Assembly: GCF_022808855.1 (NCBI RefSeq)
Contig: NZ_JAKZLF010000003.1
Span: 62,001-126,000 of the forward strand
Direction: 5' to 3'
From: Anaeromyxobacter soli
Lineage (GTDB): Bacteria > Myxococcota > Myxococcia > Myxococcales > Anaeromyxobacteraceae
Length of the DNA stretch: 64,000 bases
Below, in pieces: positions 45,599-48,834 of this stretch (position 1 is the stretch's first letter; every line of letters starts with the position of its first letter). The translations under genes were made by a program, and so were the position numbers. The notes beneath the pieces are model-generated. The model was not told the origin of the DNA, searched no databases, and saw only the letters and a program-made list of their open reading frames with translations.

Positions 45599-45604
45599 GT
45601 TTCG

Positions 45605-45643
45605 CGGGCGCTTGGCCTCACGGTCGAGCGCCCGTTTCCTTTT
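45605..45643 (+). terminator. Intrinsic terminator of tRNA-Thr
   Basis: The 8-bp stem CGGGCGCT (45605-45612) / AGCGCCCG (45627-45634) is followed by TTTCCTTTT, a typical intrinsic terminator directly after the tRNA. Confidence 0.85.
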
Positions 45644-45804
45644 GGGCCACTGGAACCCCTCCGCGAGTACCTCCTCGTGCCGTCGATGCCGCCCGGCTGG
45701 GAACGCCCGGCCCATCGGCTGCAAAGAAGAGCGACGGCGCTCGCCCTCCCCGAGCTCGGGCGCCGCCGCCCGCCAGTCGTGAGCGGCGGTCCCGCTCCTC
45801 GCGT

Positions 45805-45875
45805 TTTTACCCGGGTGTTATTGACGGGCGGGCGCGCTCCGCGGTAGGTCTCTCCCGAGTTTGACCCGGGTGAAA
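45805..45875 (+). promoter_or_regulatory. Two ACCCGGGT palindromes flanking a TTGACG box upstream of the DUF2239 gene
   Basis: The sites TTTTACCCGGGTGTTA (core 45809-45816) and TTGACCCGGGTGAAA (core 45864-45871) share an 8-bp palindromic core with T-rich left and A- or T-rich right flanks. Their centres are 55 bases apart. A TTGACG box (45821-45826) lies between them. The layout suggests paired operators for a dimeric regulator around a promoter. No regulator gene is adjacent. Confidence 0.5.
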
Positions 45876-45899
45876 TACCGGCGGCTCTGGGGACGCGAC

Positions 45900-46499
45900 T
45901 TGGCGGACGAGGACAGGTACACGGCGTTCGCGGGCGCCCGGCGCCTCGCGTCGGGCGCGAGGCGCGACGTATTGCTCGCGGTGAAGGCGCACCACGACGC
46001 CGGCGGGGGCTCGGTGCTGGTGTTCGCGGACGCGACGGGCCGGCAGATCGACTTCGACATGCGGGGCACGCCGGAGCAGGTCGTCGCGCGCGCGGAGCCG
46101 CCGCCGCGGGTGGGGCCGGGCCGGCCGAGGCTGGGGGTGGTGAGCCGCGAGGTGTCGCTCCTGCCCCGTCACTGGGAGTGGCTGGAGCAGCAGCCGAGCG
46201 GGGCCTCTGCGGCGCTCCGGCGGCTGGTGGACGAGGCGAGGAAGCGCGAGCCGGACCGGGAGCGCGCGCGGCGGGCCCGCGAGGCCGCAGGCCGGTTCAT
46301 GTGGGCGATGGCTGGCGATCTCGCCGGCTTCGAGGAGGCCTCGCGCGCGCTGTACGCCGGGGAGACGAGGCGGCTCCGGGCGCTGGTCCGGTCCTGGCCG
46401 AAGGACGTCCGCACCCACCTGCTGGCGCTGTGGGAAGAAGCGGCCCGGCTCGAGCGTCCGCCTCCGGACGAGCCCACCGCGAAGCCTCGCGGCCGCTGA
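45900..46499 (+). CDS. DUF2239 family protein
   Basis: This protein of about 199 residues matches the DUF2239 pattern: YTAFAGARRLASGARRDV at the start, VLVFADATGRQIDFDMRGT, then RPRLGVVSREVSLLPRHW, GASAALRRLVDEARK and FMWAMAGDLAGFEEASRAL. The family has no established function. I chose TTG 45900, which puts the conserved YTAF near the N-terminus and follows a weak GGGGAC; the frame is open to TTG 45861, which overlaps the second palindrome. The GIY-YIG-like gene follows after 11 bases. Confidence 0.87.
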   Translation: MADEDRYTAFAGARRLASGARRDVLLAVKAHHDAGGGSVLVFADATGRQIDFDMRGTPEQVVARAEPPPRVGPGRPRLGVVSREVSLLPRHWEWLEQQPSGASAALRRLVDEARKREPDRERARRAREAAGRFMWAMAGDLAGFEEASRALYAGETRRLRALVRSWPKDVRTHLLALWEEAARLERPPPDEPTAKPRGR

Positions 46500-46510
46500 G
46501 GAGAGACCCG

Positions 46511-46876
46511 ATGGATCGGAGAGCGGAGCTGAAGCGCGCGGCGCGCGAGACGAGGCCCGAGGCCGGCGTGTACCAGATCAGGAACGTCCGGACGGGGATG
46601 ATCCTGGTCGAGAGCACGTTGAACCTGAAGACGCTCAACGGCAGGCGGATGGAGCTCGCGCGCGGAGTGCACAGGAACGCGCGGCTCCGCGCGGACGTGA
46701 GCGCGCTCGGCCCCGACGCGTTCGTCTTCGAGGTCCTCGAGGTGCTGCAGGAGCAGGACGAGGGCCTCGTGTACCCCCGGGACGCGGTGCGGCAGCTCGA
46801 GGCGGCGTGGCTGGAGCGGCTGCAGCCGTACGGCGACCGCGGCTACAACACCCCGTCCGGACCAGGACCGACCTGA
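46511..46876 (+). CDS. GIY-YIG-like protein with degenerate second motif
   Basis: This 121-residue protein has the N-terminal GIY-type strand GVYQIRNVRTG at 19-29. The usual YVG/YIG strand is replaced by MILVEST. A conserved-looking NGRRMELARG segment and a late acidic helix (LEAAWLERLQPYG) follow. The overall layout fits the GIY-YIG nuclease fold, but activity is uncertain without the second tyrosine. ATG 46511 starts 11 bases after the DUF2239 stop, so the two are probably co-transcribed. Confidence 0.75.
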   Translation: MDRRAELKRAARETRPEAGVYQIRNVRTGMILVESTLNLKTLNGRRMELARGVHRNARLRADVSALGPDAFVFEVLEVLQEQDEGLVYPRDAVRQLEAAWLERLQPYGDRGYNTPSGPGPT

Positions 46877-47219: not shown

Positions 47220-47248
47220 TTGACCGCGAGCGGAACGAGGGCTAGCAT
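47220..47248 (+). promoter_or_regulatory. Putative sigma70-type promoter of the glutamate dehydrogenase gene
   Basis: TTGACC (47220-47225) and TAGCAT (47243-47248) are separated by exactly 17 bases, inside an A+T-richer patch. Transcription would start near 47255, directly at a 7-bp hairpin GCTTCGC / GCGAAGC (47256-47276) and 53 bases before the ATG. Confidence 0.55.
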
Positions 47249-47307: not shown

Positions 47308-48834
47308 ATGGCCGGTCGAAACGGCAGGAAGAGCTTCTACGACGAGGCGATGGAGACGTTCCATCGGGCGGCGGATCTCATCCAGATGAACCCCCGCGTC
47401 CGGATGGAGCTGGAGGAGCCGGACTTCGAGCACATCTTCTACGTCACCACGGAGCTGCGCGACCGGCTCGTGCCCCTCTCCGCCGAGGACGCGCCCAAGT
47501 TCAAGGACCTGCAGCCCTCGGACATGAAGGCGGCCGACGCGCTCGAGCCGCTCGCGAACGGCAACTTCATCCTGCACCGCCGCGCGCTGCTCCGCTCCGA
47601 CATCCACATGCGGCAGGGCGTCATCAACATCCCGAAGATGGGCCTCTTCCGGATCGAGAAGGGCGGCCCGCGGAAGTTCAAGGCCTACCGCATCCAGCAC
47701 AACCAGGTGCGCGGTCCGTACAAGGGCGGCATCCGCTACCACAAGGACGTCTCGCTCGACCTCTTCAAGATGCTCGCCGCCGACATGACCTGGAAGACGG
47801 CGATCGCGGAGATCCCGTTCGGCGGGGCGAAGGGCGGCATCAAGCTCGACCCCTTCAACTACTCGCGCGAGGAGATCGAGCACATCACCCTCCGCTACAT
47901 CTACAAGTTCAAGAACTTCATGGGCCCGTTCGTGGACATCCCGGCGCCCGACGTCGGGACGAACGGGGAAATCATGGCGTACATGATGCGCCAGTTCACG
48001 GACGGTGAGCGCGAGCACCACAAGCTCCGCGGGGTGGTCACCGGCAAGGACGTGCGCATCGGCGGCTCCGAGGGGCGCGTCCGCGCCACGGGCCAGGGCG
48101 TCGTGTACTGCATCGAGGAGTGGGCGCGCGATCGCGGCTTCGATCTCAAGGGCGCGCGGATCCTCGTACAGGGCTTCGGCAACGTGGGCTCCTCGGCCGC
48201 GGAGATCCTCGCCGCGCACGGCGCCAAGATCGTCGCCGTGAACGACGCCAACGGGACGATCCACAACGACAAGGGGATCGACGTCGCGGCCCTGGTCCAG
48301 TACGTCCACGGCAACAAGGAGAACCTCCGCCGCACCGTCGAGGGGTTCCCGGGGGCGACGGCGATCTCCAAGGACGACTTCTGGTCCATCGACGCCGACA
48401 TCTGCATCCCCGCCGCGCTCGGCGAGGAGATCACGGGCGACGTCGCGGAGCGGCTCAAGGTGAAGCTCGTGGCGGAGGGCGCGAACGGCCCCACCACCCG
48501 CGACGGCGATCGCGTGATGATGGGCCGGAAGATCGATCTCATCCCGGACATCATCTGCAACGCCGGCGGCGTCACCGTCTCGTACTACGAGTGGCTGCAG
48601 AACCAGCGGCTCGAGCACTGGACCGAGGGCGACGTGAACCGCCGCCTGGAGCAGGCCATCAAGAAGAACTACGCGATCATCCGCGACATCGCGCGGAACC
48701 GCCCGCAGCGCACGCCGCACTACGACTCGCGCCCCTACTGCGTCGGGCAGGAGATCGACGTCCGCACCGCCGCGATGGTCCTCGCGCTGAAGCGCGTGGA
48801 GGCGCACTACCTCATCGAGGGCTTCTCGCAGTAG
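47308..48834 (+). CDS. Glu/Leu/Phe/Val dehydrogenase, probably glutamate dehydrogenase
   Basis: This 508-residue enzyme interconverts glutamate and 2-oxoglutarate plus ammonia using NAD(P). The substrate domain contains YRIQHNQVRGPYKGGIRYH and the catalytic region IAEIPFGGAKGGIKLDP. The Rossmann domain has the dinucleotide motif VQGFGNVGSSAAEIL. EGANGPTTRDGD and the NAGGVTVSYYEW segment complete the family pattern. It is about 50-80 residues longer than the hexameric 420-450 type because of an N-terminal extension. The start is ATG 47308 after GAGG. Coenzyme preference cannot be told. Confidence 0.94.
   Translation: MAGRNGRKSFYDEAMETFHRAADLIQMNPRVRMELEEPDFEHIFYVTTELRDRLVPLSAEDAPKFKDLQPSDMKAADALEPLANGNFILHRRALLRSDIHMRQGVINIPKMGLFRIEKGGPRKFKAYRIQHNQVRGPYKGGIRYHKDVSLDLFKMLAADMTWKTAIAEIPFGGAKGGIKLDPFNYSREEIEHITLRYIYKFKNFMGPFVDIPAPDVGTNGEIMAYMMRQFTDGEREHHKLRGVVTGKDVRIGGSEGRVRATGQGVVYCIEEWARDRGFDLKGARILVQGFGNVGSSAAEILAAHGAKIVAVNDANGTIHNDKGIDVAALVQYVHGNKENLRRTVEGFPGATAISKDDFWSIDADICIPAALGEEITGDVAERLKVKLVAEGANGPTTRDGDRVMMGRKIDLIPDIICNAGGVTVSYYEWLQNQRLEHWTEGDVNRRLEQAIKKNYAIIRDIARNRPQRTPHYDSRPYCVGQEIDVRTAAMVLALKRVEAHYLIEGFSQ

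Follow-up and report, generated by a model that had tools for sequence, protein, structure and literature searches.

A palindrome pair conserved before DUF2239 genes in about a dozen phyla suggests a self-repressing DNA-binding regulator

What are two near-identical palindromes doing around a promoter-like box in front of a DUF2239 gene, and which protein would read them? In the window, i.e., the whole 64,000-nucleotide stretch of the Anaeromyxobacter soli genome that was analysed, two ACCCGGGT octamers are located at 45809-45816 and 45864-45871, 55 bp apart centre to centre, with a -35-like box, TTGACG (45821-45826, plus strand), between them; the arrangement described from the letters alone (the sequence-only reading) is thereby confirmed. 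The first octamer and the box are both contained in TTTTTACCCGGGTGTTATTGACG and the second octamer in AGTTTGACCCGGGTGAAATACC, and the 13-bp repeat at the two places was recovered with one mismatch. Alignment with the upstream regions of 74 DUF2239 genes delimited operator 1 (GTTTTTACCCGGGTGTTATTGA, 45803..45824, plus strand), whose right flank starts the -35-like box, fused to its right arm. Alignment also gave a candidate -10, TAGGTC (45845..45850, plus strand), 18 bp after TTGACG, on which a simple sigma-70 scan made no call. Operator 2 (AGTTTGACCCGGGTGAAATACC, 45858..45879, plus strand) was delimited by the site model and would lie over the inferred transcription start. It is followed by a candidate ribosome-binding site read from the sequence (GGGGA, 45889..45893, plus strand) and by the DUF2239 gene (PF09998, Pfam E 1.2e-72; 45900..46499, plus strand), which codes for 199 aa from a TTG start at 45900 that aligns with the ATG of a 91%-identical Anaeromyxobacter terrae orthologue (L039). 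The second gene (46511..46876, plus strand; 121 aa), degenerate GIY-YIG-like (TIGR01453, E 2.7e-4), is likely co-transcribed with it. On the other side, a terminator-like hairpin (45604..45635, plus strand) located 3' of the upstream tRNA-Thr gene would set that gene apart from the DUF2239 promoter. Another sigma-70-like promoter (TTGACC-17-TAGCAT, 47220-47248) is found in the window before a gene of the Glu/Leu/Phe/Val dehydrogenase family (47308-48834).

The pair had been considered unlikely by chance. ACCCGGGT alone is not enriched, with two copies observed in the window against a mean of 1.05 expected, and 31 of 100 shuffles reaching two. In the flanked form TTKACCCGGGTG, the whole 5.3-Mb genome contains just two places that match without mismatch, and both are at this locus (the 27 other matches of the scan have one mismatch each). 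The strongest evidence against chance is the conservation before orthologues described below. With a model made from 60 related sites, whose training set included both window sites, the only window matches at E<=10 were these same two places.

To look at the conservation we gathered 30 DUF2239 loci on named genome contigs, 46 in the 195 genomes analysed of the window's phylum (46 genomes with a single copy each) and one further locus (L117). L031, which duplicates the window's own copy, had been excluded beforehand. Upstream regions were obtained for 83 loci (that of L063, with a broken frame, was placed by hand), and removing nine with an identical matched protein stretch left 74, on whose 220-bp upstreams the matrix was refined. 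The 22-bp palindrome AATTTTACCCGGGTAATATTGA was found upstream of all 74 non-redundant DUF2239 genes. At 7 bits 71 of the 74 loci have at least two copies, the single-site loci being L054, L083 and L101, and at 15 bits 65 have at least two sites and nine have one. The 74 upstreams hold 166 sites at 7 bits (in eight loci one of them is a weak match that lies across the gap of the true pair), versus a mean of 1.5 and a maximum of 4 in 50 randomised sets generated by a first-order chain. The lowest best score over the 74 loci was 16.7 bits, and reversed sequences peaked at 7.6.

As the matrix had been trained on these same upstreams, we also tested a set outside the training. All 13 plasmid or chromid DUF2239 loci, including those of Deinococcus and Paenibacillus, have two sites each at 10 bits, against 7.5 bits at most in the reversed sequences; they come from 13 of 24 records of DUF2239-bearing plasmids or chromids, the other 11 being mostly further Azospirillum and Acinetobacter. 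The two sites are 26-29 bp apart in 11 of them, 19 bp in Acinetobacter and 35 bp in Novosphingobium, where the second site is weak. Conservation of the motif before DUF2239 orthologues, one of the checks proposed with the sequence-only reading, was thus found inside and outside the training set. According to the record titles, these loci belong to Myxococcota, Planctomycetota, Fibrobacterota, Acidobacteriota, Gemmatimonadota, Spirochaetota, Armatimonadota, Verrucomicrobiota, Bacteroidota, Pseudomonadota, Deinococcota and Bacillota, many of them being MAGs. Caulobacter and Azospirillum brasilense Sp7 are among the bacteria that have the family. The palindrome pair is, judging from its conservation, a putative cross-phylum operator present in about a dozen phyla. 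Three loci (L064, L067 and L117) have altered operator cores, and no residue change matching them was seen by eye. A changed core, TTACCCTGATAA, is also found in an Acinetobacter baumannii plasmid (L249), with the two sites 19 bp apart before DUF2239, and relatives occur in two Acinetobacter phage records. In a Sandaracinus MAG (L055), the DUF2239 upstream contains repeated GACCAAGGTTGA units together with TTTTACCCCGGTAAAAC-type palindromes.

The search was also carried out in the opposite direction, applying a paired pattern without reference to any gene. In the 195 genomes of the window's phylum it gave 27 matches in 21 genomes (none in the reversed control), 17 of them, at 16 places, before DUF2239 and 10 elsewhere. 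Outside Myxococcota, 16 of 18 places found motif-first were directly upstream of DUF2239. All four places found in 337 genomes from the phylum of the Acidobacteriia MAG (L062) were before the gene. With a slightly looser pattern, 378 genomes of Pandoraea's phylum gave six places, of which four precede DUF2239; the other two lie upstream of a MATE gene and of an APH/choline-kinase-like gene. The same looser pattern gave ten places in 318 genomes of the class of G1191, some of which are common to the 378; two places had already been counted, the eight new ones were all before DUF2239, and the reversed control had one match. Within the window's phylum the pattern, strict enough to miss many real pairs, the window's own among them, was present in 19 of the 46 genomes with DUF2239 versus two of the 149 without it (Fisher p 6e-12). 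These two are a draft of 1490 contigs (G081) and a genome with a weak match (G123). The pair in G081 (L182, G081:C673) persists without a detected DUF2239, and DUF4440, the closest gene that could be recognised, lies about 240 bp from it; perhaps DUF2239 was lost or falls in an assembly gap. A strict 23-mer, allowing up to three mismatches, matched only 13 of 29 DUF2239 genomes, at 14 places of which 13 were before DUF2239, so the sequence is conserved and not fixed. Model R1, among the matches listed, hit at least 18 of the 149 genomes without DUF2239 at E<=1 and at least three (G027, G081 and G145) at E<=0.05; the inspected sites of G027, G145 and G181 lie inside long open frames and were therefore treated as chance. 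The expected association of the motif with promoters was borne out by these scans, mostly directly before DUF2239. In the literature, no regulator of the motif appeared among the matches listed for TACCCGGGTA-type strings; one candidate source (PMC12234432) was discarded, the string there being part of a cloning primer.

The recurrence of the palindromes before the same gene suggests that DUF2239 would be a DNA-binding self-repressor, sometimes controlling drug-efflux pumps. By sequence, the operators are symmetric and overlap the gene's own core promoter, and the regulator would most likely be the DUF2239 protein itself. We give a probability of about 0.7 to the reading in which DUF2239 acts through the palindromes as an autorepressor and also represses the downstream GIY-YIG-like gene.

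The protein itself has features consistent with this role. The Pfam match covers positions 1-181 of the 182 of the DUF2239 model (244 bits, with a gathering cut-off of 25). AlphaFold predicted a strand (84-86) followed by two helices (89-96 and 102-115), with a mean pLDDT of 86.5, and a second short strand at 79-81; a model of the core fragment had the same strand-helix-helix order (mean pLDDT 78). This predicted core, about residues 84-115, is the most conserved part of DUF2239 and is preceded by GPGRPRLG, in which GRP, resembling the core of an AT-hook, is invariant and followed by K or R. A strand-helix-helix topology of about 45 residues, as in ribbon-helix-helix (RHH) proteins, is present in the model. 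The core matched no known DNA-binding family in Pfam, NCBIfam or PDB sequence searches, and when 30 full proteins and 29 core fragments were run against Pfam, the matches listed at E<=10 included no RHH model. A profile comparison with RHH_1 (hhalign) was weak, scoring 14.8 over 14 columns with a probability of 4%, with a mean of 8.2 and a maximum of 13.4 in 60 column shuffles. In Foldseek the full model had no RHH chain among the best 50 of 96 matches, and matched mainly helical proteins via its C-terminal part; the 50-residue core model gave two weak matches, both to the LysR-type CbnR. No solved RHH protein was among the matches listed by Foldseek or VIA-align. Since no sequence or fold search confirms an RHH assignment, we do not file DUF2239 as a member, and say only that, from its predicted structure, it may work like an RHH repressor. 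In two DUF2239 proteins the C-terminus is extended by a SnoaL-like part, detected by Pfam in L066 (3001-3969) and by eye in L037.

That the sequence searches place DUF2239 in no DNA-binding family is one of two points in favour of another conserved transcription factor binding the operators, DUF2239 being merely its commonest target; the other is the pair found in two genomes without a detected DUF2239. However, in different phyla as well as on plasmids the motif goes with DUF2239 and is not genome-wide, and the commonest neighbour among those sought, the GIY-YIG-like gene, adjoins in only 20 of 104 loci, so we consider this explanation unlikely.

How self-repression could work is indicated by the geometry of the sites. 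Of the 74 loci, 69 have a clear pair, defined as two sites that both reach 10 bits at a distance of 18-60 bp, and in 55 of these the sites are 25-29 bp apart. TTGA follows site 1 in 44 of the 55, and in 41 of these 44 a fixed hexamer position in site 2 falls 16-18 bp after the -35 (TAATAT is the commonest hexamer, and TAnnnT was matched in 31 of the 55). The spacing therefore follows that of a sigma-70 promoter. As read from these alignments, the usual geometry is one in which the putative TTGAC -35 is carried by site 1 and the putative -10 by site 2. Six Anaeromyxobacter loci, the only ones among the 74 with this arrangement, have neighbouring sites 53, 54, 55, 55, 56 and 57 bp apart and a separate -10-like hexamer (TAGGTC, TAGCTC, TAAGCC or TACACC) 17-18 bp after TTGA(C/T), and here site 2 would cover the inferred transcription start. 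In a seventh Anaeromyxobacter genome (G004) the DUF2239 is a different one (L037), and its sites are 28 bp apart.

With DUF2239 as autorepressor, a symmetric oligomer of the protein would bind each 22-bp site, the central strand-helix-helix segment reading the CCCGGG core and the invariant GRP plus K or R perhaps entering the A/T-rich flanks. Operator 1 overlaps the -35 box and operator 2 covers the -10 position in most loci or the presumed start in Anaeromyxobacter, so that occupied sites would exclude RNA polymerase. A signal would release DUF2239 from the DNA, plausibly a small molecule, because several of the extra targets and neighbours (see below) are efflux pumps. The sites, how conserved they are, their promoter geometry, their occurrence together with the gene and the extra sites in genomes carrying it are observations; that DUF2239 binds and represses, how it contacts DNA and what releases it are inferred. 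If DUF2239 binds the sites it might also mainly activate, or work both ways, since operator 1 has its centre about 9 bp before the TTGAC box, a position compatible with an activator. Yet site 2, on the -10 in the common geometry or on the predicted start in Anaeromyxobacter, fits steric repression, which makes activation improbable.

The sequence-only reading had also proposed that a spacing of about five helical turns would enable co-operative binding or looping, and this was not supported. At 10.5 bp per turn 55 bp amounts to 5.2 turns, and the range within the genus is 53-57 bp, so strict five-turn phasing is absent. The presence of at least two sites at 71 of the 74 loci would suit looping or strictly phased co-operative binding, but the spacing varies, being 25-29, 19 or about 50 bp elsewhere, and for this reason we do not favour a mechanism of this kind and regard it as very doubtful. 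Three-site arrays with outer sites 51-55 bp apart are found in L042, L043, L065, L090 and L093. The possibility that the 55-bp pair represents the outer sites of such an array was rejected, as no middle remnant was found in Anaeromyxobacter (best scores -12.5 to -31.9). An ordinary promoter, or palindromes arising by chance, for which only the expectation of about one ACCCGGGT per window speaks, have practically no chance of explaining the cross-phylum conservation and the outcome of the randomised, reversed and outside-training controls.

As for the genes under control, the sites had been said to govern the DUF2239 and GIY-YIG-like pair, and they do indeed look like conserved operators placed around its promoter. 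The 121-aa product had no Pfam match and scored 21 bits against TIGR01453, under the cut-off of 56; a Nannocystis homologue reached 21.8 bits against a PF01541 cut-off of 22.6, and two plasmid homologues are annotated as GIY-YIG nuclease family. The hallmarks of GIY-YIG nucleases are the tyrosine of YIG and the catalytic Arg, Glu and Asn. An alignment of 17 of the 20 homologues found contains no tyrosine at the position matched by eye with YIG, and no invariant catalytic set. The gene adjoins DUF2239 in 20 of 104 loci: downstream in 13, upstream on the same strand in one and divergent in six. Other neighbours were MATE (five loci), DUF1330 (three) and an Azospirillum MFS gene (one), all these counts being lower bounds, given the short flanks (76 of the 104 loci have at least 1 kb downstream) and the few query proteins; four partner families were sought. 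MATE genes lie beside DUF2239 in Phyllobacterium, Pandoraea, a Labilithrix MAG and two genomes of genus g18; in Phyllobacterium the annotated order is GIY-YIG, divergent DUF2239, MATE. The three loci with DUF1330 after DUF2239 are those of Eleftheria, Rhizobium and a Paenibacillus plasmid (L243, L244 and L247); this plasmid is mobilizable and also carries tet(L).

Operators were also found away from DUF2239. Five g19 genomes (all of one genus) have a pair before a carotenoid oxygenase gene (the call comes from a Pfam run on one of them, PF03055, E 1e-107), and further pairs precede an amidase gene in G064 and an MFS pump gene in G079. In G003 a pair 29 bp apart lies beside an ORF without a Pfam match, and in G122 one site above threshold is followed 27 bp on by a second ACCCGGGT and about 190 bp further by a TetR gene. 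MATE genes elsewhere have one site in G211 and two in G1191. Genomes G211, G1191, G1169, G064, G079, G122, G003 and the five of g19 all carry a DUF2239 gene together with their extra sites. Another place in G064 (L176, G064:C1:899000-902500) has three operators, then a truncated DUF2239 remnant and then a short-chain dehydrogenase gene, and is a decayed DUF2239 paralogue that kept its promoter.

A wider and more tentative reading, which we hold to be possible, would make DUF2239 a new family of ligand-responsive factors. The GRP arm and the RHH-like core would read the operator, the N- and C-terminal parts would sense a xenobiotic, and the GIY-YIG-like protein would be a pseudoenzyme acting as co-regulator or sensor and not as a nuclease. 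With so little variation in the operator across about a dozen phyla, the regulator, its sites and a cargo (MATE, MFS, DUF1330, carotenoid oxygenase) would amount to a portable resistance-like module.

Autorepressors that act on local targets are already known as a type of regulator. The closest functional analogue that we found is FepR-FepA of Listeria monocytogenes, in which a local repressor of the TetR family acts on a MATE pump and also autoregulates (PMC4154695). DUF2239 is similar in being a presumed local repressor of its own promoter and in having MATE genes adjacent or with the same operator. It differs in lacking a TetR domain (Pfam), in the conservation of its operator in about a dozen phyla and in that MATE is adjacent in only five of 104 loci. 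HrcA-CIRCE is a palindromic operator nearly unchanged across phyla that accompanies one regulator. The DUF2239 palindrome is likewise near-constant over phyla and tied to one regulator; unlike CIRCE, it has another sequence and other targets, and its sites are mostly paired, forming the promoter. MetJ, CopG and NikR are RHH autorepressors. RelB is also one (PMC2812701). DUF2239 shares with these four a strand-helix-helix core (predicted), adjacent palindromic operators and autoregulation (presumed), but has no significant RHH sequence match and has its core between two other predicted parts. In contrast to RHH antitoxins, no conserved toxin gene was found beside DUF2239 among the four partner families sought, the commonest partner being present in 20 of 104 loci.

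We found no paper on DUF2239, PF09998 or COG3644, and the family, its operator and the depth of its conservation appear undescribed in the literature searched, which left out most subscription papers and all preprints. DUF2239 gains in this way a testable function, DNA binding and autorepression; the constancy of the operator across phyla lets the targets of the family be read straight from genomes, and the pump targets hint at compounds to try as inducers. As a minor observation on the window's own assembly (G000), contigs C21, C45 and C64 have an identical TTTACCCAGGTG at bases 38-49, near the contig start, which is probably a shared repeat at assembly ends.
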